From a virus, in the IMG/VR virus record IMGVR_UViG_3300005935_000148, positions 1 through 23,131 of that record: DNA of 23,131 nt; one strand, written 5' to 3'. Shown here piece after piece: positions 11,065-23,131 of the stretch. Under the pieces are notes generated by a model, which did not search any database, was not told the DNA's origin, and saw nothing but the letters and a program-made list of their open reading frames with translations. Position 1 is the first letter of the stretch. Each line of letters starts with the position of its first letter. The position numbers and the translations under genes are program-made.

Positions 11065-12560
11065 TATAGGAATATGTCAGTATCATCATCTGCCTCTCCA
11101 TAATATTCTTCTTCAAATAGCGGAGGCTCATACAAACAGTATACACAACTATCACCCTGATCCGGAGATCTACCCATCCTTTTTTTAAACTCTTTCTTAT
11201 CTTCTACTATAATTCTTCCATCACTTTTAATCAAATATTTCATACCGGTTAAATCTTCAATCAATTCAGGATCATTAGGTATGGAAAGAATATTACCTTC
11301 TTCGTATTGGCGTTCAAAGATTTCTCTGGAACACCACCACATTTCAGCTTTTAGATTTGCGAATTTCTGATCATCAAATGCCTTGTGAGCAGAATCAAGT
11401 CCTATTACTGGCTGACCTAATTCTGCCAATCTATCAAATACTCCTGCTCCTAATCCACAGGCATCTACCTGTATCATTTCATTTGGCTCAATTAGATTAC
11501 GAACTATACCAACTGTCTGCATGGTATTTTTCTTTCCCCAAATTTCTTGTGGTAGTAATTCTTTTCTTTCTTTAGTAGTTAATACGGTTTTATCAGTTCC
11601 CATTCTAGCTATATCCAAACCATGCCTTTTACTATAAGCATCATCTTCGGTATATTCTATTTTAGCATCAACAGCACTCATGACCCAAGAAAGAGGAAGA
11701 AGATTACTTTCTCCAGAAGTAGTAAACTCTCCCAGGATTTTAGTTTCCCATAAATCAGGACGCTTTGTAGTCCACATCATTTTCTTATCTTTAATTGTGG
11801 CTTCTTCTACAATCTGTATTTTTTCCTCTAACTTTTTAGGCCATTCCCTACCTGTTTTAGATTTACCGTAATTATACAAATCTTTATTCATATGTAATTT
11901 AGATTCTGGGAAATGAGAAGGATTAACGAATGGAGAATCAAAGGCAGATAAGCTTATACAATTCCATGAATTTAATTCTGATTCATGGTGCTGCCTGAAT
12001 GGACATTGCTGGTCTGCTCCGTCTGTTGTTGATAATTCTAATACCCTAGAATTACCACCAGTAAGAGACCCTTCCACTGCATCATATAACCATCTTTCTA
12101 ATCCCTTCGCTTCGTCTAAAATCCATAGTATATTTGGAGAGTGGAATCCCTCCATCCTGAAAGGCTTATCAGTAGAGAACCCAATCATATACCAATCAGG
12201 CTCTATTCTTACTTGAACCATATCTGCACTTCCAGCTAAGTATCGGTTGTTTCTTGAGTAGATTTCCCCTATCTCTTTCCATAATAAATTTTTAACTTGA
12301 TTTCCTGTTGGAGCAGTTGTGACTACTACTGAAGGGAAATACAAATTCAAATATGTGACTGCTAATGCAGCAGCCGTTAATGTTTTACTAATTCCATGAC
12401 ATGCTTTTACAGAAGTCCTTTGATTGTTCATAACAGAATCACATATAAGTCTCATACCTGACCACGTTTTTAATCCACAATAATCTTCTATAAACGCAGA
12501 CCAATCTTGCCTATAATGATCGACAAATTCAACTTCATCAAGGGCTTCGCTACTTCCCAT
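11064..12560 (-). CDS. terL: Terminase large subunit (packaging ATPase and nuclease)
   Basis: This gene encodes 498 residues and overlaps the small terminase gene by 11 bases. The ATPase domain has a Walker A-like motif ACHGISKT (residues 53-60, with S instead of the first G or K of the strict motif) and Walker B ILWILDE (144-150). The C-terminal RNase H-like nuclease shows RHGLDIARMGTDKTVL with Asp316, IQVDACGLGAG with Asp366, and RSPDQGDSCVY with Asp467 and Asp470 as likely metal ligands. With the small subunit it would recognise, cut and pump phage DNA into the prohead through the portal. Length and domain order are normal for the family, so packaging is probably functional. Confidence 0.92.
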   Translation of the reverse strand: MGSSEALDEVEFVDHYRQDWSAFIEDYCGLKTWSGMRLICDSVMNNQRTSVKACHGISKTLTAAALAVTYLNLYFPSVVVTTAPTGNQVKNLLWKEIGEIYSRNNRYLAGSADMVQVRIEPDWYMIGFSTDKPFRMEGFHSPNILWILDEAKGLERWLYDAVEGSLTGGNSRVLELSTTDGADQQCPFRQHHESELNSWNCISLSAFDSPFVNPSHFPESKLHMNKDLYNYGKSKTGREWPKKLEEKIQIVEEATIKDKKMMWTTKRPDLWETKILGEFTTSGESNLLPLSWVMSAVDAKIEYTEDDAYSKRHGLDIARMGTDKTVLTTKERKELLPQEIWGKKNTMQTVGIVRNLIEPNEMIQVDACGLGAGVFDRLAELGQPVIGLDSAHKAFDDQKFANLKAEMWWCSREIFERQYEEGNILSIPNDPELIEDLTGMKYLIKSDGRIIVEDKKEFKKRMGRSPDQGDSCVYCLYEPPLFEEEYYGEADDDTDIFL

Positions 12561-13053
12561 TATTCATCCGTTCTCTGTATTTATCTGCAATACTTTTCAT
12601 ATTAATATCAGCAGTAATATTTGCATTTATTTTCTGTCCATATAATTCTCTATCCTGCATTTCCAAGAACCACTTAGAGGCTTTCCAATCGTCCTTTGCT
12701 GCATCTGTAATAATACGTTGATGCTTAATTATAGCTTTGGCCTTGCCTGCATCTATCAGTCCAGCAACGCATAGATATTTTTTATCTGCTTCCTTCAGTT
12801 TTCCAAAGGTTTTTTTCTTATTCTGTATATCTTTTTTTAATGCTCTACCCTTTTTTGCCCAAGAATCCCATGTCGTTTTTGGTATACCCATGCTTTGAAA
12901 TACATATTTCTGGAACTGACCTTCATACAAAAGCACCTTTATTAAAGCTAACATCTCCCAAGTAAGAGAAGTCATTCTACCGGGACCCTCTGCTGTTTCG
13001 GATTTCAGAGCTTCTATATAATTTTTAATATCTGACTTCTGCTTCTTAGTCAT
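12550..13053 (-). CDS. terS: Terminase small subunit
   Basis: This gene encodes 167 residues. The start overlaps the upstream stop as TAATG at 13053. The N-terminal half is basic and helical with FQSMGIPKTTWDSWAKKG, a helix-turn-helix-like DNA-binding segment, and the C-terminal half has DDWKASKWFLEMQDRELYG, a pattern (W-x-A-x-x-W-x-L-E-x-x-x-x-x-x-Y-G) very common in small terminases. The protein would bind the packaging initiation site and load the large subunit. The gene order (small then large subunit, portal) agrees. Confidence 0.82.
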   Translation of the reverse strand: MTKKQKSDIKNYIEALKSETAEGPGRMTSLTWEMLALIKVLLYEGQFQKYVFQSMGIPKTTWDSWAKKGRALKKDIQNKKKTFGKLKEADKKYLCVAGLIDAGKAKAIIKHQRIITDAAKDDWKASKWFLEMQDRELYGQKINANITADINMKSIADKYRERMNNGK

Positions 13054-13568
13054 TATGCCCTCGTGAAAACAGTTTCTTTAGAATACTTCCTTTCGTTAAC
13101 TATATATTCTAAAAAATCTTCCCGTTCAAATCCTGACAATCTCCAAATTTCTTCTTTCTTCATTCCTAATTGCTCTGCTATTTCATTGATAGGAATTTCC
13201 TTTTTTAATAACGATTTAACAATCGTTTCCATAGGTCCTAATAAGTGTGTCCCCCTGGCTCGATTATGAGTGATAGTACCATAGATATCATCTTTTTCTT
13301 CTGCATGGCTCACTATAACAATCGGCACTTTACCTCCTGTCTTTGTTTTTAAAGGTTCTTGTCCAGAAATTAGCCACCTATGAAATCCATCTATAATTGT
13401 CATATCAGGCCGAACCACTATAGGTTGTGTCCACCCATTATTTATAATCGATTGTTTCAGCAACTCAAGATTACTTTTCAATACCTTATTTGGATTATAA
13501 TCATTAGCTTTCAATTTATCATGATCGACTAATGTAACATTCATTATTGGTTTTAATATATCATTCAT
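13053..13568 (-). CDS. IbrB-like ParB-domain protein
   Basis: This gene encodes 171 residues. The start at 13568 overlaps the IbrA-like gene by 8 bases, with AAAGGG upstream. Residues about 14-75 form a ParB/Srx-type domain: KANDYNPNKV, LLKQSIINNGWTQPIVVRP, then TIIDGFHRWLISG, followed by HNRARGTHLLGPME, which is typical of the IbrB group. The last third (IPINEIAEQLGMKKEEIWRL) looks like a helix-turn-helix. IbrA and IbrB were described in E. coli as a pair that increases expression of immunoglobulin-binding eib genes carried by prophages; ParB-type domains in such pairs may bind nucleotides. The biochemical role here is not known. Confidence 0.75.
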   Translation of the reverse strand: MNDILKPIMNVTLVDHDKLKANDYNPNKVLKSNLELLKQSIINNGWTQPIVVRPDMTIIDGFHRWLISGQEPLKTKTGGKVPIVIVSHAEEKDDIYGTITHNRARGTHLLGPMETIVKSLLKKEIPINEIAEQLGMKKEEIWRLSGFEREDFLEYIVNERKYSKETVFTRA

Positions 13569-14706
13569 TTCTTAACCCTTTAAAATCTAGTTTCCCTGAT
13601 TTATTTTTATATCCTTTTGATAAATGAGAATATAATGCTCTTCGTATCCTTCCTTTAGGATCTCCAGCCGTTAACTGATCTCTCATAGTTTCCCAACCCT
13701 TCTTGGTCATATCATCACCATATTTAAATAGGAATGATTTGACTTCATGGTAAGTTGAAGATTTAGGATTAATTAACTTGAATTTTGGTAATAGTTTAAA
13801 TACTTGATCTTTCAATTCAGCAAGAGTTTCTGACTTTCCTTCTTTTTCTTTTCTTGTTGAACTTGATCTTCTAAACATAGCACTATCCCAATACATCATT
13901 GCCAGATATGCATTGGGTTCTCTAAGTACAATTTTCTCAAATAAATCAGGATAGAATTCCATCATTCTTACAAGTGATTGAACTGAATCTATAGTAAAGA
14001 ATTGTGATATTCTTAATCTGTTTATAGGAATATTAAGTTTCCACATATATGTATAAACTATCGGAAATTTTATTTTCCTATCTAGCATGAAAAGCCAGAC
14101 ATCATTTAGCGTCCAGTCAATTATAGGATAATAAAAATTTCTGGAACTTGTATTTAATTTATCTTGCTTCATTTGGCTCATAGCTGTTAACCGTTGAAAA
14201 CTTTCTCTAGCTCTCAATCCTATTACTTGTGGACCATCATTTATCCTTAACATGAATTCCTGATAGAAATCTCCTGGTTTAAATTTATCATGATTCGTAA
14301 TTGCAAATTTAGGTATTGGCCTTATCCAAACATCCTTCTTTCTGGGGTCCCAACAAATCATGCTCTCATCATTATATAACATATTAAGACAATTATAATG
14401 CCGAATAGGTAAACAGAGCCAATAAAATCTTGCACCTATATTTAAGAATATTTTTCTATACATTCTTACTACTTCTTCTACATCTGGATATATTGCTTCT
14501 TCATCAATGAATATTACTCTGCTTTTAGTAACATCAATTTCATTTGATTCGTGTAATTCCAGGATCAAATACACTACTGCTAATGAATCTTTACCACCGG
14601 AAAATGATATATATACATATTTATTATTTTTATATAACTTAATCAGTCTTTGTTTGGCTGCATAAACTACATCATGTTTCCCGTAAACCTTAATTAATCT
14701 CTGCAT
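13561..14706 (-). CDS. IbrA-like PAPS reductase/ATP pyrophosphatase family protein
   Basis: This gene encodes 381 residues from ATG 14706. An earlier in-frame start at 14748 overlaps the upstream gene and lies before the AAGGAA ribosome binding site, so I did not use it. The PP-loop motif SGGKDS is at residues 36-41 within VYISFSGGKDSLAVVYLIL, followed by RVIFIDEEAIYPDVEEVV, and later GLRARESFQRL and FYYPIIDWTLNDVWLFM. This is the order in PAPS-reductase-like ATP pyrophosphatases, enzymes that adenylate a substrate and release pyrophosphate. The next gene is its IbrB-like partner, a pairing common in phages and prophages. Related PP-loop enzymes (DndC) act in DNA phosphorothioation, so nucleic acid modification is one possibility. 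Confidence 0.85.
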   Translation of the reverse strand: MQRLIKVYGKHDVVYAAKQRLIKLYKNNKYVYISFSGGKDSLAVVYLILELHESNEIDVTKSRVIFIDEEAIYPDVEEVVRMYRKIFLNIGARFYWLCLPIRHYNCLNMLYNDESMICWDPRKKDVWIRPIPKFAITNHDKFKPGDFYQEFMLRINDGPQVIGLRARESFQRLTAMSQMKQDKLNTSSRNFYYPIIDWTLNDVWLFMLDRKIKFPIVYTYMWKLNIPINRLRISQFFTIDSVQSLVRMMEFYPDLFEKIVLREPNAYLAMMYWDSAMFRRSSSTRKEKEGKSETLAELKDQVFKLLPKFKLINPKSSTYHEVKSFLFKYGDDMTKKGWETMRDQLTAGDPKGRIRRALYSHLSKGYKNKSGKLDFKGLRNE

Positions 14707-14711
14707 ATTTA

Positions 14712-15275
14712 TTATTCCTTTTTGAACTTTCCACCACAATAAGGACATTCAATTTCATCATCAAAAAATTCTACATCAACTTTTTCTTTTGTTTCCCCTC
14801 CTTCAAAGAAATCCTTTTCTTCAGGGACATAAGCTGTTTCATATATCTTTTCATTCTCTTCAAAAAATTTTTGATCTTCTTTATCATTTAGCATTATTAC
14901 TTTAAGAAGTTCAGCATCATATCCAGGTATATCATATCCACCTATGGACATAATCAATTCTTTCATAGCATCTTGATCATCATGACCCATGCTTTGTATT
15001 TTGTTATCTGCCAGTAATAACTTTTTTTTATCTTTTATAGAAAGCCCTGTATACCTGATAATATCACAAGTTTTTGTTCCTGAATCTTTCAAGGCAAGCC
15101 ACAAACCGTGGCCTGCCAAAATGACATTATCCTCATCAACTATAATTGGTCGATACTGTTTGAACAATTTTATGCTTCTCCCAATTTCTTTTAATTGTTC
15201 TTCACTATGAACTCTTGGATTATTTGGATGAGGTTTTAATGTCGATATAGATGCTTTTGCTTTTTTCGTTTCCAT
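14712..15275 (-). CDS. ParB-like nuclease-domain protein with C-terminal CxxC
   Basis: This gene encodes 187 residues. The N-terminal domain reads STLKPHPNNPRVHSEEQLKE (about 11-30), followed by YRPIIVDEDNVILAGHGLWL and the helical block KKKLLLADNKIQS. This is the ParB N-terminal domain layout found in phage proteins where it often precedes an adenine methyltransferase domain. Here no methyltransferase follows. The usual Arg after A-G-H-G is replaced by Leu57+1. The C-terminus ends in CPYCGGKF (residues 177-184), half of a zinc ribbon or a metal knuckle. It is followed after five bases by the IbrA-like gene and may work with that pair. Confidence 0.75.
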   Translation of the reverse strand: METKKAKASISTLKPHPNNPRVHSEEQLKEIGRSIKLFKQYRPIIVDEDNVILAGHGLWLALKDSGTKTCDIIRYTGLSIKDKKKLLLADNKIQSMGHDDQDAMKELIMSIGGYDIPGYDAELLKVIMLNDKEDQKFFEENEKIYETAYVPEEKDFFEGGETKEKVDVEFFDDEIECPYCGGKFKKE

Positions 15276-15283
15276 ATTAAATC

Positions 15284-16687
15284 CTATACTTTATTTCTCC
15301 TCATACTACTCCATGTATAAGAAATTATTCCAGAAAGTAATACAGTCATTAGATTCCCAAGTAATGCTATTTGCCAATTACCAATCAATTTACCAATAAC
15401 AAAAACAGGTAATCCAATTACAAGACTAGCTGATATACCCCAAAATACACTTTCTCCATATAGCTTTTTACCGAAGATAGTTATTAATGTTGGTAGTAAT
15501 GTAGCTGCCCTTAGTGTCCCATAGAATAAGAACAAATGAAGAATTTTTAATCCAGGTATGTTTGCTATCCCTATTCCTAGGATTGCTAATGCTATCATTG
15601 CTACTCTTGATACAGTTAGACTTGTTGATAATTTCCCTTTAATTCGTTTTGCAAAATCTACATTCACAAGACTTGCTACTGCACTAAGATTAGAATCCAG
15701 TGTTGATGCTAATCCAGAAATTATTAATATAATAACTAATGGAACGATCACTGGAGGCAGATATTTTTGTAAAACCACTATATTGATTAACTGTGGATCT
15801 ATCCCTGTTATCCCATCTGCAGCACCAATGAAACCCAGAAGTGCAAACAGTAATGGAACTATTCCGAATACCAATCCACCTACTATAAATGCTCTCTTTA
15901 CTCTATCCTGTTTTATTGAAAAAGTTCTTTGCCAGCATGTTTGATCACCAAATGGTCCTGCTAATAATCCAACAGTATTAATAATTCCAAATGTAAGCAT
16001 GATTTGGATTCCTTCAGGACTGAAGAATTTGGTAGTTCCATTTAAACCACTAAGCCCCTGGATAACTTTTGGAAATCCTCCGGCATTATGAACTACAAAA
16101 GGAACTGCAATTATACCGACCAGTAAAATAAAACCCATCTGTAGAAAATCTGTTACTACTGATGCTTTCATACCTGAAATAAGACTATAAGATAATGCTA
16201 TTACTGCTAAGATAACAGTCATTAAAAAAAAGTTTGTTCCTGTTAACGATCCTATTATAGCAGCACCAGCAAGTAGTTGAACTGCAAAGCTACATATCTG
16301 TAAAACTGTAAACTGTATTAAATAAACAGTATGAGCTTTCTCACCATATTCACTAAACATTACTTCTGGCAATGTGAATCCATTTGGAAATCTGTTTCTA
16401 ATCTTTACTGATGCAATCCCAAAAAATATAAGGCAAAGAACATTTGGTATAAAGAACCATGCAAATCCGACTAATCCTTGTTGATATGCTTTTTGTGCTG
16501 CAACAAATAAAGCCGGAGCCCAAATCCACGTTGCTGCAATCGAAAATGATGCAACCAGTGTTTTAACATTTCGATTTGCTACTATAAATCCCTCAAAGCC
16601 TTTACTTCTCTTTCCTAAAAATATAGATATTACTATCATAATAAGACCGTAAATACCTAATAACCCCAATACCGCTCCTGCATTCAT
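15284..16687 (-). CDS. Sodium:solute symporter (SSS family), second tandem copy
   Basis: This gene encodes 467 residues from ATG 16687, which has AGGAG eight bases upstream. A longer frame begins at 16825 but its extra 46 residues are polar and lie over the end of the first symporter gene. The protein is made almost wholly of membrane helices (about 12-13) and begins NAGAVLGLLGIYGLIMIVIS. SSS-type landmarks are FPNGFTLPEVM, DQTCWQR and LIISGLASTLDSNLSAVASL, the last matching the conserved helix that helps form the Na2 sodium site. It resembles its neighbour closely (about 60% identity by eye) and lies 26 bases downstream. Such carriers import sugars, nonulosonic acids, amino acids or other solutes with Na+. 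The substrate is unknown. Confidence 0.88.
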   Translation of the reverse strand: MNAGAVLGLLGIYGLIMIVISIFLGKRSKGFEGFIVANRNVKTLVASFSIAATWIWAPALFVAAQKAYQQGLVGFAWFFIPNVLCLIFFGIASVKIRNRFPNGFTLPEVMFSEYGEKAHTVYLIQFTVLQICSFAVQLLAGAAIIGSLTGTNFFLMTVILAVIALSYSLISGMKASVVTDFLQMGFILLVGIIAVPFVVHNAGGFPKVIQGLSGLNGTTKFFSPEGIQIMLTFGIINTVGLLAGPFGDQTCWQRTFSIKQDRVKRAFIVGGLVFGIVPLLFALLGFIGAADGITGIDPQLINIVVLQKYLPPVIVPLVIILIISGLASTLDSNLSAVASLVNVDFAKRIKGKLSTSLTVSRVAMIALAILGIGIANIPGLKILHLFLFYGTLRAATLLPTLITIFGKKLYGESVFWGISASLVIGLPVFVIGKLIGNWQIALLGNLMTVLLSGIISYTWSSMRRNKV

Positions 16688-16713
16688 AATATTTTCTCCT
16701 AAATATAATTTTA

Positions 16714-18138
16714 TCATCCCTCTGAATGATTTATTAATATTCTCATCCTGATACTGCTCCATGTATAAGCTATAATTCCTGAAGCAAGAACAGTAATTAT
16801 ATTTCCTGTAAGTGCCGTTTGCCAATTTCCTGTTAACTTTCCTATTACGAATGTTGGAATACCAATTACCATGCTAACTAAAATTCCCCAAAAAACACTA
16901 TCACTATAAATATTTTTACCAAATATAGTCATTAGTGTTGGAAGAAGTGTTGCAGCCCGAAGTGTCCCATAAAATAGGAATAAATGTAATATTTTTAATC
17001 CAGGTATATTAGCAATGCCAATTCCTAATATTGCTAATAAAATCATTGCTATCCTAGAAACATTAATATTTGTATTTATTTTACCAGTAATCCTTTTAAA
17101 CAAATCTACATTAACTAAACTTGAAATAGCACATAAATTTGAATCCATCGTTGAAGTTAAACCAGAAATAATTAGAATAACTATTATTGGAGTAATCACT
17201 GGAGGAAGATATTTTTGTAATACAATTATGTTAATCAATTCTGGATTTATTCCAGTAATCCCATTTGCAGCACCAATAAATCCTAAAATAGAAAAAGCGA
17301 TTGGAACTATACTAAATATTAGTCCTGCACTTATACATGCTTTTTTTACTTTATCTTTCTTAATAGCAAATGATCGTTGCCAGAATGTTTGTTCACCTAT
17401 TGGTCCTGATAATACCCCGATTGTAGTTATTATGCCAAAGGTAAACATAATTTCAATTCCTTCAGGACTGAAAAAATTAAGTCCTCTATTATGCATTCCA
17501 CCAATGCCATTTATTACTGTAGAAAATCCCCCTGCATTATGTAAAGCGATTGGAACTGCTATTACACTTACTAATACAATAAATGCCATTTTAATAAAAT
17601 CTGTAATTATTGAAGCTTTTAATCCATATATTAATCCAGCCGTTAATGCCACTGCTGACAGAATAATAGTAATTAAAAAGAAGTTGATTCCAGTTAACCA
17701 CCCCACTATAAAAGCCCCTGCAAGCAACTGCATAGCAAAAGAACATATCTGAACAATAGTAAATTGTAGTAAATAAATACTATGGGTTTTATTCCCATGC
17801 TCTGTAAGCATTAAATCTGGCAACGTAAATCCGTTTGGAAATTTCTTTCTAATTCTTGAAGCTGCTATTCCAAATAGAAATAGTGCAAAAACATTTGGAA
17901 TAGAAAACCATGCAAATCCAACCCACCCATTTTGGAAAGCCTGTTGTGCTGAAATAAATAATACTGGAGGTAATACCCAAGTAGCAGCTATAGAAACAGA
18001 ACCACCTAATGTTTTTATTTTTCTATTTGCTACCATGAAACTATTAAATCCCTTATTCTTTCTTCCTAAAAAAACAGATATTATAAGCATTAAAATACAA
18101 TAAATTCCTAATAGTATTAAAGCTGATCCTACATTCAT
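16714..18138 (-). CDS. Sodium:solute symporter (SSS family), first tandem copy
   Basis: This gene encodes 474 residues with AAGGA upstream of ATG 18138. Features parallel those of the next gene: N-terminal helix SALILLGIYCILMLIISVFL, the cytoplasmic FPNGFTLPDLM, GEQTFWQRSFAIKKDKVKK, IISGLTSTMDSNLCAISSL, and NIPGLKILHLFLFYGTLRAA near the end. Both copies are intact, with no frameshift. The gene lies 14 bases after the cytidylyltransferase gene, so these three genes are probably one transcription unit. That placement suggests that the transported solute could feed CMP activation. The SSS family includes known sialic acid carriers, but also proline, pantothenate and glucose carriers, and no residue I can see decides the substrate. 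Confidence 0.88.
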   Translation of the reverse strand: MNVGSALILLGIYCILMLIISVFLGRKNKGFNSFMVANRKIKTLGGSVSIAATWVLPPVLFISAQQAFQNGWVGFAWFSIPNVFALFLFGIAASRIRKKFPNGFTLPDLMLTEHGNKTHSIYLLQFTIVQICSFAMQLLAGAFIVGWLTGINFFLITIILSAVALTAGLIYGLKASIITDFIKMAFIVLVSVIAVPIALHNAGGFSTVINGIGGMHNRGLNFFSPEGIEIMFTFGIITTIGVLSGPIGEQTFWQRSFAIKKDKVKKACISAGLIFSIVPIAFSILGFIGAANGITGINPELINIIVLQKYLPPVITPIIVILIISGLTSTMDSNLCAISSLVNVDLFKRITGKINTNINVSRIAMILLAILGIGIANIPGLKILHLFLFYGTLRAATLLPTLMTIFGKNIYSDSVFWGILVSMVIGIPTFVIGKLTGNWQTALTGNIITVLASGIIAYTWSSIRMRILINHSEG

Positions 18139-18152
18139 ACAAATTTTCCTTG

Positions 18153-18869
18153 TTATAATTTTGTCATTCCACCAAATGCTTTATTAAAATCCTCTACTGT
18201 TTGAGGATAATAACCTAACCATTTAATTACTTTATTCCAGAATAGCCTTTCCAAATTCCAATCAATACTCAATTTCATTGGTGTAACTTCTGGATCAGTA
18301 ATGTGGCTGGTATCTATGATTAATGGTTTCAGGAAATCAGGTTTTTCTTTTGCTACAATCCAATACTGTTCGTATGAATATTTATGACCATAAGTATCCA
18401 TAAGATATTCGTATTTGTCGTAAGCTGATTTTAGGTTTATCCCTGCAACGAATCCTGGCATTGGAGCCAGGTTTCCAAATCCACCAACCGAATCATAATT
18501 CTCTGGATGGGCTTCTGCCAGCAACCCATCAATCAATACCTGAACATACTCATTACTTACAAACGGACAATCCCCTGATATAGTCAATACGGCACCAAGA
18601 TTAAAAGTTTCTATAGCATGCAAATCTCTTACTAATAAATCATGCTCTGGACCACGATTAATTTCTGCTCCGGCTGCATAGGCAATTTTGCATAGTTCAT
18701 TGTCTGAGGTGTTTGTGGTTGTTGATAAGATTATTTGGTCTAGGTTTTCTAAATATTGAAGCTTCTTAATTATCTGTTCAATTAAGGTTAAGCCACCAAG
18801 CATTCCAAGATGCTTTCTAGGATATCTTGATGAAGTACTGCGAGCTGTAATAACGGCCCCTATCCTCAT
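18153..18869 (-). CDS. Cytidylyltransferase (SpsF/CMP-sugar synthetase-like)
   Basis: This gene encodes 238 residues. I chose ATG 18869 because GGAGG lies six bases upstream; the ATG at 18887 would put that site inside the gene. The N-terminal nucleotide-binding motif GAVITARSTSSRYPRKHLG matches the pattern A-R-x-x-S-x-R-x-P-x-K of the CTP_transf_3 family, followed by LIEQIIKKL, LDQIILSTTT and LGAVLTISGDCPFVSNEYV, where Asp100 in S-G-D-C-P is a likely metal ligand. The family includes NeuA, PseF, KdsB and SpsF, which couple CTP to sialic, pseudaminic or Kdo-type sugars and release pyrophosphate. SpsF-like members dominate this motif pattern; the exact sugar is unclear. The symporter genes follow directly. 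Confidence 0.83.
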   Translation of the reverse strand: MRIGAVITARSTSSRYPRKHLGMLGGLTLIEQIIKKLQYLENLDQIILSTTTNTSDNELCKIAYAAGAEINRGPEHDLLVRDLHAIETFNLGAVLTISGDCPFVSNEYVQVLIDGLLAEAHPENYDSVGGFGNLAPMPGFVAGINLKSAYDKYEYLMDTYGHKYSYEQYWIVAKEKPDFLKPLIIDTSHITDPEVTPMKLSIDWNLERLFWNKVIKWLGYYPQTVEDFNKAFGGMTKL

Positions 18870-18925
18870 ATTATGCCTCCATTGCATATATTATTATTCA
18901 ATATACATAATATCGGCAGTTTTTA

Positions 18926-19705
18926 CTAGAGTACAGATTTTGATACTTTTGCTTTTATATATTTACTTCCCTTACTTAAATTATCATGAGCCCATAACGG
19001 TTGAAGGTTCGTATAATGAAAACACTGTTTCCTCTGATAAAGATCAGTTAAGTCAAAGCTGGCACAGGGTTTTATATGATCAATATGCCATCCATAAAAA
19101 GTATGATTATCCCAAGACATCCCATCTATAAACTGATTTTCCAAATATTGTTTAAACTCTCTTATAGTACACCCTAATAATACTAAAGCAGATCCTTTTT
19201 TAAAATTACGCTTTAGTGCTATACGCAATCTAGTTCTTAATATATGGGCTAATTTAAAGTTAATATCGGTATTCATTTTATTATTAATGTATTTATTTAC
19301 TTTTTCTCTATTATTATCTACATATTTTTTATTTCTCTTAATAATTTTATCCCTATTATTTCGATAATATATTTTACTTTTATTTCTTAGTTCTTTTATA
19401 TTTTTTTGACGATATTGTTCCATTATTAAAAATATTTTCTCTTTATTATTTCTATAATATAATTTATTTTTCACATCTATTTCCTTTTTATTTTTTTCAT
19501 AATATAATCTACCTATCTCTATTATCTTTTCTTTATTTTTTAAAGAGTATATTTTTTTTTGTTCAAGTATATTCTTTTTATTATTTTGATAATATTTTCT
19601 TCTACATTCTTTACAATAGCAATTAAAACCATCGTCCCTATACTTATCTTTGCTAAATTTATTTATATCCTTAATTTCTTTACACTTTATACATATCTTT
19701 TCCAT
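18926..19705 (-). CDS. HNH endonuclease with seven 15-residue repeats (homing-type)
   Basis: This gene encodes 259 residues from ATG 19705, which has GGAG six bases upstream. An earlier in-frame GTG at 19729 lies inside the leader hairpin and is rejected. The N-terminus carries a zinc-knuckle-like Cys set (C5-x2-C8 and C31-x2-C34). Residues 38-142 are seven consecutive 15-residue units of the type YYRNNKEKIFLIMEQ. The C-terminal HNH domain has WHIDHIKPCASFDL (206-219, His207, Asp209, His210), then HYTNLQPLW with Asn233 and AHDNLSKG with Asn242. This layout is typical of free-standing phage HNH homing endonucleases, which cut related genomes lacking the gene. It has its own promoter and structured leader, as expected of a mobile gene. 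Confidence 0.85.
   Translation of the reverse strand: MEKICIKCKEIKDINKFSKDKYRDDGFNCYCKECRRKYYQNNKKNILEQKKIYSLKNKEKIIEIGRLYYEKNKKEIDVKNKLYYRNNKEKIFLIMEQYRQKNIKELRNKSKIYYRNNRDKIIKRNKKYVDNNREKVNKYINNKMNTDINFKLAHILRTRLRIALKRNFKKGSALVLLGCTIREFKQYLENQFIDGMSWDNHTFYGWHIDHIKPCASFDLTDLYQRKQCFHYTNLQPLWAHDNLSKGSKYIKAKVSKSVL
19280..19594 (-). repeat. Seven in-frame 45-bp degenerate tandem repeats in the HNH gene
   Basis: The repeats encode residues 38-142 of the endonuclease. Each unit is exactly 15 residues, beginning with Y-Y or Y-x and containing N-x-(K/R)-(E/D)-(K/E)-(I/V/L). Example units are YYEKNKKEIDVKNKL and YYRNNRDKIIKRNKK. No insertion or deletion disrupts the period. They probably form a long helical linker or DNA-binding rod. 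Confidence 0.75.
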
Positions 19706-19724
19706 ATTCTTCTCCAAATAAAAA

Positions 19725-19807
19725 AGCACCTCTATCAGGGGCTGACGTTGAGTATTGCTACTCCCCCTGATACAAGTGCCTTAATGTTTCCAATATCTTA
19801 ACGTCAG
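19725..19807 (-). promoter_or_regulatory. Pseudoknotted RNA leader with terminator-like stem, upstream of the first HNH gene
   Basis: Read on the minus strand: stem 1 pairs CTGACGTT (19807-19800) with AACGTCAG (19749-19742), 8 exact pairs. Stem 2 pairs 19780-19764 with 19741-19725, 17 positions with one G-G mismatch and two G-U pairs. The 3' half of stem 1 lies in the loop of stem 2, so the two form an H-type pseudoknot. A small hairpin GAGTA-GCAA-TACTC (19763-19750), with a GNRA loop, sits inside. Stem 2 is followed by six T residues, then ATTTGGAGA and the HNH start. It could act as an attenuator or as a structured RNA recognised by a protein. The predicted transcription start is only about 12 bases upstream. 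Confidence 0.75.
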
Positions 19808-19825
19808 TAAAGATACCCTATATAT

Positions 19826-19854
19826 AATATACTACATTTGTCTTTTGATGTAAA
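19826..19854 (-). promoter_or_regulatory. Sigma70-like promoter for the HNH/cytidylyltransferase/symporter genes
   Basis: On the minus strand TTTACA (19854-19849) and TATATT (19831-19826) are separated by exactly 17 bases; each differs by one base from the consensus. The expected start is near 19819, just before the pseudoknot. The -35 box lies directly behind the terminator of the preceding gene. It is the best promoter found in the window and no other strong terminator lies downstream of the first leader, so it may also feed the late operon. Confidence 0.7.
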
Positions 19855-19857
19855 CAT

Positions 19858-19885
19858 AAAAAAAGCCCTCCTGAATAGGAGGGCT
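19858..19885 (-). terminator. Intrinsic terminator after the small exported protein gene
   Basis: On the minus strand AGCCCTCC (19885-19878) pairs with GGAGGGCT (19871-19864) across a six-base loop, giving eight exact, GC-rich pairs followed by a run of seven T residues. It ends the accessory transcription unit 24 bases after the stop codon of gene 19910-20242. The opposite strand lacks a T-run, so it works in one direction. Confidence 0.92.
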
Positions 19886-19909
19886 GTATGCTTTATTGAA
19901 AATTTCTTG

Positions 19910-20242
19910 CTAGTATTTCACAGTTACCCCGGCCTCCACAATGCCAAGGATATCCGCCTCTACATCTTCAGCGTCAAACCATTCTATATCAAATACTAAA
20001 ACTGGAGTTGTAGCTGTTATTTTTGCTGACATATCAAGTACTTCATCGGTATCCATGAATACGTCTGCTCCGATTCCCATGAAGCCAGCCTCATAAACTA
20101 CTCCGGCATCGATAGCATAAATATTCAAATCCGTAACCATATCTCTTTCGACATCCACTCTGGTTTCTCCAGAGACCTCCCCGGCAAAAGAAAGTGTTGC
20201 CAGTATACCCAACATTAACATCAAAACAATTAGTCTCTTCAT
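19910..20242 (-). CDS. Small exported protein, possibly outer-membrane-associated
   Basis: This gene encodes 110 residues with a strong ribosome binding site (AGGAGGG) before ATG 20242. Residues 1-20 are a clear signal peptide: MKR, a hydrophobic core LIVLMLMLGILATLSF and an A-x-A-like end before GEVSGE. There is no lipobox Cys. The mature part is acidic and beta-like, with alternating residues (NIYAIDAGVVYEAGFMGIGA) and a final strand ending EAGVTVKY. A C-terminal aromatic residue is typical of outer membrane beta-barrel proteins, but 90 residues allow only a few strands, so it may be oligomeric or a periplasmic protein. It stands alone between the MalG-like permease gene and a terminator. 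No family recognised. Confidence 0.75.
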   Translation of the reverse strand: MKRLIVLMLMLGILATLSFAGEVSGETRVDVERDMVTDLNIYAIDAGVVYEAGFMGIGADVFMDTDEVLDMSAKITATTPVLVFDIEWFDAEDVEADILGIVEAGVTVKY

Positions 20243-20260
20243 AAGACCCTCCTGAAATAT

Positions 20261-20290
20261 ATTATCATAGCACTAAGGCTGTGATTGCAA
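20261..20290 (-). promoter_or_regulatory. Possible weak promoter for the small exported protein
   Basis: In the 49-base gap, minus-strand TTGCAA (20290-20285) and GATAAT (20266-20261) are 18 bases apart, four and five matches to consensus. It fits the only gap in the accessory block, but AT-rich DNA gives such matches by chance. Confidence 0.35.
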
Positions 20291-20291
20291 T

Positions 20292-21107
20292 TTATCCTTT
20301 TAATCCTCCAAATAGTCCCTTTACATAGTACTTCTGGAAACAAAGGAATACTATTAATATCGGCAAGAAAGCAAAGGTAGCTGCTGCAAAAGATTCTCCG
20401 TAATGTGGTAATGAATCCATCGCTGTTTTATGTACTAAAAACTGAACTGTACCCACTGGAAGAGTATATAATTTTTCTCTGCTAACAATAATAAACTGCC
20501 AGAGGAAATTTCCCCACTGACCTACAAATCCAATCAATGCCATTGTCACTATTGCCGGAGCTGCTAATGGTATTATTATATTTGTGAATTTTCGTATTTC
20601 TCCACAACCATCTATAGTCGCTATATCTAAATAATCATCCGGTATGGTAGACAGAAATTGCCGGAAGAAGAATAGCATGAAAACAGATATTCCAGACGGA
20701 AGCCACATTGCCATCAATGAATTATATAATCCGAAGAATCGTATTAACTGAAACGATGGAATTAACGTAATCTGTCCAGGTATAATCATTGTGAATAAAA
20801 ATAGATTAAACAGAATCTCCTTTCCCTTAAATCGTTTTTTAGCAAAAGCATATCCAGCCATTACGTTAATCGGGATTGTTAATAACACAGAGCATATTGA
20901 TACTGTGATACTATTCCGTAACCATAGCCAAGCCGGGTATTTGAATAGCTCCCTGTAATTATTAAAATTCATATCTTTTGAAATCAATGTTGGAGGGATT
21001 CTTTGCAGACCAACTGTTTCCTGAAAGCTACCGGATATCATCCATACCAAAGGGATCAGTAGAATTGCTGCAATTAGAATTACTATTGTAAAACCGAAGT
21101 ATTTCAA
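20292..21107 (-). CDS. Carbohydrate ABC transporter permease, MalG/UgpE-like
   Basis: This gene encodes 271 residues with about six membrane helices. The N-terminal helix FTIVILIAAILLIPLVWMIS is followed by the large domain and then the EAA loop YLDIATIDGCGEIRKFTNII with a following IPLAAPAI, which contacts the ATPase subunit in this transporter class. The end FQKYYVKGLFGGLKG is very typical of the MalG-type (CUT1) family. It would form a heterodimer with the MalF-like protein encoded at 21541-22380, importing a sugar or glycerol-phosphate-like solute with a binding protein and an ATPase. Neither of those partners is seen in the window. The start overlaps the NTP pyrophosphohydrolase gene by four bases. 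Confidence 0.93.
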   Translation of the reverse strand: MKYFGFTIVILIAAILLIPLVWMISGSFQETVGLQRIPPTLISKDMNFNNYRELFKYPAWLWLRNSITVSICSVLLTIPINVMAGYAFAKKRFKGKEILFNLFLFTMIIPGQITLIPSFQLIRFFGLYNSLMAMWLPSGISVFMLFFFRQFLSTIPDDYLDIATIDGCGEIRKFTNIIIPLAAPAIVTMALIGFVGQWGNFLWQFIIVSREKLYTLPVGTVQFLVHKTAMDSLPHYGESFAAATFAFLPILIVFLCFQKYYVKGLFGGLKG

Positions 21108-21361
21108 TTAGTCAGCTCCTTATCACATAACCCGATCATAAAATGGCAAGCGTTTGCAAGGTCGGCACATTCAAGGCGGAGTAGTTTAATATTTACGCCT
21201 CTTTTAATCAATTCTTCGTGAACCTCTTCTGATTCTTCATAAATCAAACTTGCCACGGCTTCAAAACTCATACTATCCCAACTATCTTTATGCCCATTCT
21301 CGACAAGTTTCTCCCTCTGTGCTTTATTACCAGCCGTAAATAATGCGTCAATATCTCTCAT
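21104..21361 (-). CDS. MazG-like all-alpha NTP pyrophosphohydrolase
   Basis: This gene encodes 85 residues with ribosome binding site GGGAG before ATG 21361. It carries the metal-binding pattern of the all-alpha NTP pyrophosphohydrolase family: YEESEEVHEEL (E43-x2-E46), then 17 residues, then LECADLANA (E64-x2-D67), fitting E-x2-E-(12-28)-E-x2-D. Phages commonly carry small members, which hydrolyse (d)NTPs to monophosphates and may affect nucleotide pools or alarmone levels. Unusually it lies between two ABC permease genes, overlapping the second by ATGA. That makes it likely that the permeases belong to the phage and are not chromosomal neighbours. Confidence 0.78.
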   Translation of the reverse strand: MRDIDALFTAGNKAQREKLVENGHKDSWDSMSFEAVASLIYEESEEVHEELIKRGVNIKLLRLECADLANACHFMIGLCDKELTN

Positions 21362-21363
21362 TT

Positions 21364-21540
21364 TTAAACTCCCTTATTAGTGTGCCCTATATGCCAATAA
21401 TGACAAAATGGGCAACGGTAAACATCCAGTACACTCTGATCACAATGAGTATGCTTTTTCTCCTGCCAAGCTTTTGATGCGGATATGTGTTTCGTTTTTC
21501 CTTCACATGTTCTTTGTTTATCAGGAATTTTTCTGGACAT
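21364..21540 (-). CDS. Small Cys/His-rich zinc-ribbon-like phage protein
   Basis: This gene encodes 58 residues, and ATG 21540 directly follows the TAA stop of the MalF-like gene, with AAGGAG upstream inside that gene. The C-terminal part YRCPFCHYWHIGHT (residues 41-54) is a Cys-x2-Cys with following His residues, a motif common in tiny phage proteins, and Cys12, His18, His30, His32 and Cys33 may supply other ligands. A zinc ribbon or treble-clef fold is likely. A 63-codon frame over the same stretch (21387-21578) has no such features. Function is unknown. With the next gene it separates the two permease genes. Confidence 0.7.
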   Translation of the reverse strand: MSRKIPDKQRTCEGKTKHISASKAWQEKKHTHCDQSVLDVYRCPFCHYWHIGHTNKGV

Positions 21541-22380
21541 TTATCTCTCCTTAAATAATCTCCTTTGCAGAACACCAATAGTCCCGATTGCTATTGCAAA
21601 CAGAACCCCAATCGCTGAAGCAAAGCCATACTTGCCGTATCTGAAAGCCTGTAGATAGATCTCCAGTACTGCTGTATTAGTTCCATAGTTAGGACCACCA
21701 CCAGTCATAATCATAGGATACAGAAAGATCTGTGAAATCCCTATTATCTTAATGAAGAATATGAAACCTACTGTTGGGAGCATCAATGGTATGGTAATAT
21801 ACCAATCTTCTTGCCTCTCATTACATCCATCAATTTTAGCTGCATCGAATAGCTCAGTATCAATAGTTGTCATTGCAGCACTATATATTATTATTGTCAT
21901 TCCCATATCAACAGATATTACAATCAGGCTAATTGCGAAGAACGCCTCTGGATTAGAACCCAACCAGAATATCTGCTTCCCTAATAATTGATTTATAAGC
22001 CCAGTAGGATTTAATAGCCATAACCATATCATAGTTATAATAGGTCCCGAAGATATAACTGGAATATAATACGCAAAACGGATTGCCGTTTGTAGAGTCT
22101 TGTGCATTCTGTATCCTATAGCAGCAATGATCAGTGGAAGAAAAGTTACTATAGGAACTATCAATAATGTAAACTTTCCAGAATTGACAAAAGCATTAAG
22201 GATTCTTTCACTATGGAAAATATCAGTATAGTTTTTCAGCCCTATGAATTTCTGACTCATAACACTGGCTTCATAGAATGATAATTGAATCGATCTTAAT
22301 ATGGGATATACTGCAAATAAAAAGAAGAAAAATAATGCTGGTAAAAGAAAAAGGTATGCTGAAAGATTATCCTTTTTCAT
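21541..22380 (-). CDS. Carbohydrate ABC transporter permease, MalF/UgpA-like
   Basis: This gene encodes 279 residues. It starts at ATG 22380, overlapping the HNH gene stop by four bases (ATGA), with AAAGGA in the HNH gene end as ribosome binding site. The N-terminal helix LFLLPALFFFFLFAVYPILR is typical of the MalF-type partner. The EAA loop reads ELFDAAKIDGCNERQEDWYI followed by TIPLMLPTVGF, and a later GGGPNYGTNTAVLEIYLQAF is another CUT1 hallmark. It would pair with the MalG-like permease in the inner membrane. No MalF-specific large periplasmic domain is present, so it is closer to UgpA/LacF-type permeases. No ATPase or binding protein is encoded here, so it may rely on host subunits or on genes beyond position 23131. 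Confidence 0.93.
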   Translation of the reverse strand: MKKDNLSAYLFLLPALFFFFLFAVYPILRSIQLSFYEASVMSQKFIGLKNYTDIFHSERILNAFVNSGKFTLLIVPIVTFLPLIIAAIGYRMHKTLQTAIRFAYYIPVISSGPIITMIWLWLLNPTGLINQLLGKQIFWLGSNPEAFFAISLIVISVDMGMTIIIYSAAMTTIDTELFDAAKIDGCNERQEDWYITIPLMLPTVGFIFFIKIIGISQIFLYPMIMTGGGPNYGTNTAVLEIYLQAFRYGKYGFASAIGVLFAIAIGTIGVLQRRLFKER

Positions 22381-23027
22381 GATACTCTTTTCCTTTTAGG
22401 TCTTCTATTATTAGCATTTTCTTTTGGTGTAACCCAATGACAGTTATCTGGTTCATAATTTCCATCATTATCAATTCTATCAATCTGAGCTTCTGGGAAT
22501 GGTTTATCTCCCATATCTTTATAGAAAGCTAAAAAAGAATTTTTCCAACTCTCACAGACTTTTATTCCTCTCCCTGCATAATCATCATAATCTTTATTAT
22601 TTGGGTTCATACATCTTTGCTTCATTCCATTCCACACTTTATAGGCTCCAGAGTTTATTTTGCCATGTCTATTCCCAGTATAGTTTATATCTCTGTGTTT
22701 TTTCCATCTGGTATAATGCATAGAACAATACCCTTTAGCATCATATTTATTATTGCATCCGTCAACTTTACAAATCTTTCTTACTTTCTTGCTTTGTTTA
22801 AAAGTAGGATCATTATGCCTAACCCAACTCATGTAATGTTTTTTACACCAACCTCTTGATACAGCCTGATTGTCACAGCCATCAATTTTACATTGCCTTA
22901 CTATTTTAGGAGGAACAAATAAGGGATCACCATATCTTTGCCATCTATGATAATGCTTTACACATAACTTTCTTAATTTGATTTGAATAGGGTTATCACA
23001 ACCATCAACACTACATATTCCACTCAT
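22377..23027 (-). CDS. HNH-like endonuclease with three Cys/His repeats (homing-type)
   Basis: This gene encodes 216 residues from ATG 23027, which has GGAG six bases upstream; a TTG at 23039 overlaps that site and is rejected. Three repeated modules with C-x4-C-x(9-11)-C-x2-H lie at residues 5-25, 46-64 and 86-104 (for example CKIDGCDNQAVSRGWCKKHY), probably zinc-binding DNA readers. The C-terminal catalytic region reads AYKVWNGMKQRCMNPNN, YAGRGIKVCESWKNSFLAF and then QIDRIDNDGNYEPDNCHWVT with a final NANNRR. This is a well-known phage HNH-like family, where D-R-I-D takes the place of the usual H-H. It shares its leader architecture with the gene at 18926-19705 although the proteins are different families. 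Confidence 0.83.
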   Translation of the reverse strand: MSGICSVDGCDNPIQIKLRKLCVKHYHRWQRYGDPLFVPPKIVRQCKIDGCDNQAVSRGWCKKHYMSWVRHNDPTFKQSKKVRKICKVDGCNNKYDAKGYCSMHYTRWKKHRDINYTGNRHGKINSGAYKVWNGMKQRCMNPNNKDYDDYAGRGIKVCESWKNSFLAFYKDMGDKPFPEAQIDRIDNDGNYEPDNCHWVTPKENANNRRPKRKRVS

Positions 23028-23046
23028 ATCCATCTCCAAATAAAAA

Positions 23047-23128
23047 CCCCCTCAAACTCAGTTTTGGACGCCAGACTATGACACTGAGTTATATTGGGGG
23101 AAATAATTTTAAGATTTTGTCTGCGTCC
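23047..23128 (-). promoter_or_regulatory. Pseudoknotted RNA leader with terminator-like stem, upstream of the second HNH gene
   Basis: On the minus strand, stem 1 pairs GGACGCAGAC (23128-23119) with GTCTGGCGTCC (23076-23066), ten pairs with one bulged G. Stem 2 pairs CCCCC (23100-23096) with GGGGG (23051-23047) and AACTCAGT (23090-23083) with ACTGAGTT (23062-23055), 13 pairs around a small internal loop. The 3' half of stem 1 lies in the stem 2 loop, making an H-type pseudoknot. TTTTTATTTGGAGA and the HNH start follow. Linker lengths (18 bases between stem 1 and stem 2) match those of the leader at 19725-19807. The start of the transcript is outside the window. Confidence 0.72.
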
Positions 23129-23131
23129 ATA

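Follow-up and report, generated by a model that had tools for sequence, protein, structure and literature searches.

A sequence-diverse pseudoknot leader, a candidate attenuator, before HNH and other accessory genes of phages

Seven phage lineages, one of them with a cultured Flavobacterium member, have one and the same RNA fold before accessory genes. The fold has almost no common sequence, and neither Rfam nor sequence search detects it. There are 12 such leaders. Two of them, copies A and B, are in the window, i.e., the whole 23,131 nt stretch of phage DNA that was analysed; the other ten are in six other lineages. Sequence and statistics establish how the leaders are built and where the promoter is, as well as the pseudoknot with its recurrence and compensatory change. 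The leader may represent a pseudoknotted intrinsic terminator that serves as a 5' attenuator of independently promoted phage genes. The probability of this reading is put at about 0.5, and it is from the sequence that we infer termination, read-through and purpose.

Both leaders of the window are on the minus strand and each is followed by an HNH gene (Table 1). In copy A, stem 1 (S1) consists of 8 bp between CTGACGTT and AACGTCAG, and stem 2 (S2) is formed by GGCACTT..TATCAGGGG and CCCCTGATAGAGGTGC, with TTTTTT-A-TTTGGAGAAGAATATG next. In copy B, read directly from the minus strand, S1 pairs TGGACGC-AGAC with GTCT-G-GCGTCCA and has 11 bp and one bulged G. S2 of copy B pairs CCCCC and AACTCAG with CTGAGTT and GGGGG, and TTTTT-A-TTTGGAGATGGATATG is found 3' of it. 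No more than 3 nt of the window remain beyond S1 of copy B, and the DNA upstream was taken from the near-identical contig L003. There, the stop codon of a solute-binding-protein gene is followed by TTTACA-N17-TATATT and then by S1. The copy A promoter is also TTTACA-N17-TATATT, and 15 bases around the -10 box are identical in the two copies (AATGTAGTATATTAT). Copy A has a promoter of its own, which in turn is preceded by an ordinary terminator; S2 of copy A is thus not needed for ending the upstream mRNA. HNH2 is followed by a sugar ABC permease gene (21541-22380) whose ATG overlaps the HNH2 stop codon, and the copy B cassette is therefore inside a transporter operon.

A sequence-only reading of the window had described two pseudoknot leaders of the same topology before HNH genes. 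This is confirmed by direct reading and by shuffles; the order of S1, linker and S2, the T-run, the SD and ATATG are present in both. Direct reading likewise bears out an A/U-rich first linker of 18-19 nt and an S2-to-T-run junction common to A and B, followed by TTTGGAGA and ATATG. The term "sequence-unrelated" was slightly too strong, in that A and B have in common the promoter, the T-run and SD, the spacing of GACG..CGTC (62 and 61 nt) and CGTC-N5-CTGA.

Table 1. Positions of leader elements and genes in the window, and leaders found elsewhere by pattern search
Feature	Position or contig	Strand	Remarks
Ordinary intrinsic terminator of upstream gene (19910-20242)	19864-19885	-	Just before copy A promoter
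Copy A -35 box	19849-19854	-	TTTACA, spacer 17 nt
Copy A -10 box	19826-19831	-	TATATT within AATGTAGTATATTAT, which also precedes copy B
Copy A S1 5' strand	19800-19807	-	CTGACGTT, in loop of 5'-terminal hairpin GGTATCTT/AAGATATT
Copy A linker L1	19781-19799	-	19 nt
Copy A S2 5' strand	19764-19780	-	GGCACTTGTATCAGGGG
Copy A loop hairpin	19750-19763	-	GAGTA-GCAA-TACTC
Copy A S1 3' strand	19742-19749	-	AACGTCAG
Copy A S2 3' strand	19726-19741	-	CCCCTGATAGAGGTGC
Copy A T-run	19720-19725	-	Direct reading
Copy A SD and start codon (19705-19703)	19703-19719	-	ATTTGGAGAAGAATATG
HNH1 gene	18926-19705	-	Endonuclease VII-like HNH, phrog_1035
Copy B S1 5' strand	23119-23129	-	TGGACGCAGAC; TGGACGC-AGAC; 7 nt past -10 box, at expected +1
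Copy B linker L1	23101-23118	-	AAAATCTTAAAATTATTT, 18 nt, A/U-rich
Copy B S2 5' strand	23084-23100	-	CCCCC-AATAT-AACTCAG
Copy B S1 3' strand	23065-23076	-	GTCTGGCGTCCA, one bulged G
Copy B S2 3' strand	23047-23061	-	CTGAGTT-TGA-GGGGG
Copy B T-run	23042-23046	-	Abutting S2, terminator-like; direct reading
Copy B SD (GGAG) and start codon (23027-23025)	23025-23041	-	ATTTGGAGATGGATATG
HNH2 gene	22377-23027	-	Zinc-finger repeats and HNH domain, phrog_3377
Leader C3	L238		Pattern search; before HNH gene, EndoVII-like
Leader D	L233/L235		Pattern search; before RtcB (Pfam E=2e-109)
Leader E	L247/L248		Pattern search; before ATP-dependent DNA ligase
Leader F	L250		Pattern search; before replication-initiation-like gene

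The fold is not readily produced by chance. The whole pseudoknot at its observed stability was found in 0 of 500 dinucleotide shuffles for copy A and in 1 of 500 for copy B. Copy A is the strongest pseudoknot among 1536 tiles that cover both strands of the window. Given S2, the chance of S1 is P=0.009 in copy A and P=0.0035 in copy B, and it is low in every leader tested (P 0.0005-0.026).

Further leaders were found outside the window. A search pattern consisting of the -10 region and TTTTTATTTGGAG matched window-like contigs and, in four unrelated cases (C3, D, E and F, Table 1), a leader with this topology. A structure-only scan of the whole L238 contig shows three leaders, C1, C2 and C3; C1 and C3 precede two paralogous HNH genes (46% identical) and C2 precedes a 93-aa ORF. 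G003 is distantly related to the window phage (terminase 39% over part of the protein); chosen for another reason, it has three leaders, I1, I2 and I3. Their energies are -49.0, -46.2 and -55.5 kcal/mol, compared with a minimum of -35 in 20 shuffles of the G003 genome; these values are simple stacking sums without loop terms and serve for ranking only. The genes behind I1-I3 encode an HNH protein (phrog_99), an anti-Thoeris Tad6 homologue (Pfam E=1e-43) and, in an ORF of 48 aa, a zinc ribbon. The remaining leader, G, is before an HNH gene in a cultured Flavobacterium elemovirus, and the same leader is present in three isolates. Three phages have two or three different leader copies per genome. 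A scan of 1.2 Mb from further phage contigs (HNH-bearing or pattern-found, mostly carriers of HNH1-like genes) gave no site that combines these energies with an SD and start codon, and in a 0.8 Mb set the G003 leaders alone stood out. The element is thus rare overall.

Some other properties of these contigs are as follows. The Tad6 homologue is at L281:5555-6142 (contig IMGVR_UViG_3300029813_000088), immediately behind a pseudoknot leader, and a search of annotated phages for Tad6 homologues gave one weak match. The window phage and the ligase-leader phage have a common cluster of ParB-like, PAPS-reductase-like and ParB-like genes (window 12550-15275 and L259:13152-15727), and the ligase-leader contig and one near-identical contig of the window phage come from the same metagenome, 3300031227. 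L259, which also carries the ligase pseudoknot leader, has two type II hammerhead ribozymes approximately 0.5 kb apart on the minus strand (17616-17684 and 18164-18229). In the window, positions 15284-23131 contain host-type transport genes on a phage contig, i.e., two sodium/solute symporter-like genes, a cytidylyltransferase and a sugar ABC transporter. Small ORFs (21104-21361 and 21387-21578) lie between the sugar ABC permease genes, and an HNH gene is upstream of the first permease.

When C1-C3 are aligned on their helices, two-sided compensatory changes are present at 11 of 18 S1 pairs and at 6 S2 pairs, and only 2 of 54 S1 cells are unpaired. The linkers of C1 and C2 differ at one base of 18. 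Of all the evidence for both stems at the RNA level, this compensatory change is the strongest. With these 17 pairs, and with the energies of the three unrelated leaders I1-I3 below the shuffle minimum, the earlier proposal that structure is kept where sequence differs is supported. All 12 leaders have a stem and T-run before the gene, in the broad layout of an attenuator leader (promoter, terminator-like stem, T-run, SD and gene). The T-run is 5-6 nt and abuts S2 in all 12; L1 is 15-25 nt and L3 is 0-14 nt. A recognisable sigma-70 promoter is found in most leaders, but it is weak in I3 and not sigma-70-like in G. In seven of the 12, S1 starts 5-8 nt past the -10 hexamer, at the expected +1, with 9-12 of 12 promoter matches. 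The presence of TTTTTATTTGGAG in A, B, C3, D, E and F is partly due to its use as search key or starting observation. C1, C2, G, I1 and I2, which were not selected on TTTTTATTTGGAG, still carry an A/U-rich TTTTTTATT after the T-run. A is a leader whose S1 5' strand is in the loop of an extra 5' hairpin, and D and F look the same by eye; these three may adopt a loop-loop (kissing) form, which is not general.

The leader is absent from many related genes. The third HNH gene of the window phage (L214:7323-7643, minus strand) has a plain promoter and SD with no pseudoknot leader; a further HNH-like gene (L213:2-334, plus strand), in a near-identical contig, has its upstream region cut off. None of approximately 65 HNH1-family relatives inspected has the pseudoknot leader, and a plain promoter and SD are the rule in almost all relatives. 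In three of them (L010 ~2820-2908, L024 ~450-534 and L030 ~2810-2914) the leader is a long hairpin whose stem includes the SD and whose loop contains a near copy of the start region of the gene itself (a short upstream ORF). Elemoviruses excepted, no leader was found at HNH1-like genes in annotated Vibrio, Azospirillum, Rhizobium, Roseobacter, Erwinia and Pseudomonas phages or a Methanosarcina virus. Genomes of Spirochaetota, Bacteroidota and Bacillota gave few matches to the HNH homologues, and the leader is absent from all four loci inspected in Spirochaetota.

Several search keys proved unsuitable. The 3' segment TTTTTATTTGGAGA-N2-4-ATATG is not a marker of HNH genes; it occurs in 92 stretches of bacterial genome contigs, with no HNH gene at the 80 inspected. 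Of the two findings that would have counted against the sequence-only reading, one is thus present, as the segment precedes unrelated bacterial genes, and the other is not, as random flanks do not yield such pseudoknots equally often. The core motif GACG..CGTC-N5-CTGA gave chance matches only, apart from window-like contigs, and the true matches of promoter plus TTTGGAGA were window-like contigs only. Distant blastn of the leader DNA against phages gave no homologue, and the Vibrio, Aeromonas, Streptococcus and Clostridioides matches examined are not members. Rfam, searched with the window leaders and related loci at gathering and relaxed thresholds, gave weak chance matches, none at gathering score. 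An HDV-like ribozyme was set aside on strand order by reasoning alone, there being no P4 between the S1 3' and S2 3' strands. No description of this leader was found in the openly searchable literature.

The attenuator reading rests on the layout, in which an independently promoted stem and T-run precede the SD, as in attenuators. Transcription would start at or near the S1 5' strand. The nascent RNA would fold S1, and S2 would then close across S1 to produce the pseudoknot. The last S2 strand, followed at once by 5-6 U, would constitute a pseudoknot-stabilised intrinsic terminator. The majority of transcripts would end there as an RNA of ~85-115 nt whose two ends are base-paired. The few others, or a regulated share of transcripts, would read through into the SD and gene. 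Such an attenuator might hold accessory genes (HNH endonucleases, anti-defence, repair and replication) at a low or delayed dose. The reading is supported by a pseudoknot beyond chance, a T-run abutting S2 in every leader, S1 at the expected +1 in seven of 12, the separate terminator upstream of copy A and the compensatory change in C1-C3. It is also supported by the promoter-RNA-terminator-gene control of AbiF/RCd22 and by the restraint of homing endonucleases by leader structure. Against it, the S2 loop is long (about 30-60 nt), unlike that of normal terminator hairpins. In addition, a strong terminator would be at odds with the coupling of HNH2 to an ABC permease gene and with a possible need for prompt expression of Tad6 or RtcB. 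The leaders gave no alternative antiterminator fold that all of them share.

The same features could form a 5'-end or translation module, where S1 at +1 seals the 5' end of the mRNA, the knot protects the message, the U-rich SD region stays open and the T-run acts as an A/U-rich enhancer. The location of S1 in most leaders, the SD outside the stems in A and B and the A/U-rich stretch even in the unselected leaders are consistent with this, and Tad6-like genes may need quick, strong expression. Yet an unbroken T-run against the stem in 12 of 12 leaders is a terminator trait that is superfluous for a mere enhancer, and such a module appears rather unlikely. It is unlikely also that the function resides in the leader RNA acting in trans, e.g., by binding a host factor or the protein encoded downstream in the manner of type III toxin-antitoxin and AbiF systems, with the gene expressed via read-through. 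The order of elements is that of AbiF/RCd22, and the stems diverge while the C1/C2 linker is conserved, as for a recognised single-stranded core. However, similarity among the RNAs does not track that among the proteins. These near-identical linkers precede unrelated genes (HNH and the 93-aa ORF), which argues against protein-specific recognition, and the HNH paralogues C1 and C3 differ more in the linker. There are also no tandem RNA repeats and no Rfam match, and the downstream proteins are not known toxins.

An ordinary terminator and RBS, with S2 a plain terminator before the gene and S1 due to chance, is very improbable given the low P values for S1 and the compensatory change within it. 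The strongest leaders are well below all shuffles, and no site of that strength is found in the 1.2 Mb of other phage contigs. In its favour, several pattern-found T-run/SD sites (L236, L240 and L241) have a simple terminator without S1, and the 3' segment occurs at unrelated bacterial genes. The sequence-only reading had suggested an RNA module that moves with HNH genes. An HNH-specific mobile cassette of this kind could be a ribozyme or an RNA-guide-like nuclease partner. The linkage is supported in part, since several HNH families (EndoVII-like, zinc-finger HNH and phrog_99-type) are behind 6 of the 12 leaders, including that of the cultured elemovirus. The specificity is not supported, as RtcB, DNA ligase, Tad6, a replication-initiation-like gene and two small ORFs are behind the other six. 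The leader is absent from most HNH relatives, and Rfam gives no ribozyme or HEARO match. The cassette is hardly credible, and as an exclusive association it is largely refuted by the RtcB, ligase and Tad6 leaders.

A wider proposal, made tentatively, is that of a new class of phage leader RNA. Its members would be sequence-diverse pseudoknots of fixed topology that extend from +1 to the T-run, several per phage, where a common trans factor of phage or host reads the fold and A/U linker and controls accessory genes (HNH, anti-Thoeris, RtcB and ligase). The leader looks like an undescribed RNA switch or brake before such genes. If it does set how much, or when, homing endonucleases and anti-defence proteins are made, phages would have in it a general control element, and it could serve in practice as a marker of anti-defence genes as yet unknown. 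The leaders also provide a direct test case of whether a pseudoknot can act as a natural intrinsic terminator.

Several known systems resemble these leaders. HEARO/IsrB (OMEGA) RNAs are structured RNAs upstream of an HNH-bearing protein. Unlike these, the leaders are far shorter and are also before non-nuclease genes, and the HEARO/OMEGA Rfam covariance model gives no match. The leader attenuators of plasmid rep genes (pT181 and pIP501) are antisense-controlled and have a terminator directly before the SD, with structure kept while sequence diverges. The phage leaders share the position of the putative terminator and the diverging sequence with conserved structure, but the genes downstream are mostly not replication genes, and a generic promoter scan gave no clear antisense unit against the window leaders. 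In T4-type homing endonucleases, RNA structure in the leader holds back expression, mostly via sequestration of the RBS (I-TevI, segB and mobE); seg43(25) is an exception, with a very stable hairpin just upstream of a free RBS (PMC2988022). The leaders described here likewise put RNA structure ahead of phage endonuclease genes (HNH or GIY-YIG in the two systems), and L010, L024 and L030 have the classical RBS-in-stem form. They differ in having a pseudoknot, a T-run, their own sigma-70 promoter with S1 at about +1, and non-HNH genes as well, and the SD of the pseudoknot leaders is 3' of the stems and T-run. AbiF/RCd22 has a promoter, a structured ~100-nt RNA, a terminator and experimentally shown read-through into the gene (PMC12373285). 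The order is the same in the leaders, AbiF/RCd22 and type III toxin-antitoxin loci (ToxIN). Unlike AbiF and ToxIN, the leaders have no repeated RNA motif, no abiF motif by Rfam and no other Rfam match at gathering score, and one leader type precedes many gene families; Pfam and PHROGs give HNH, RtcB, DNA ligase, Tad6 and replication initiation downstream in place of a ToxN/HEPN toxin. The leaders thus lack the defining traits of both the T4-type and AbiF families, but in outline they would appear to work like both.
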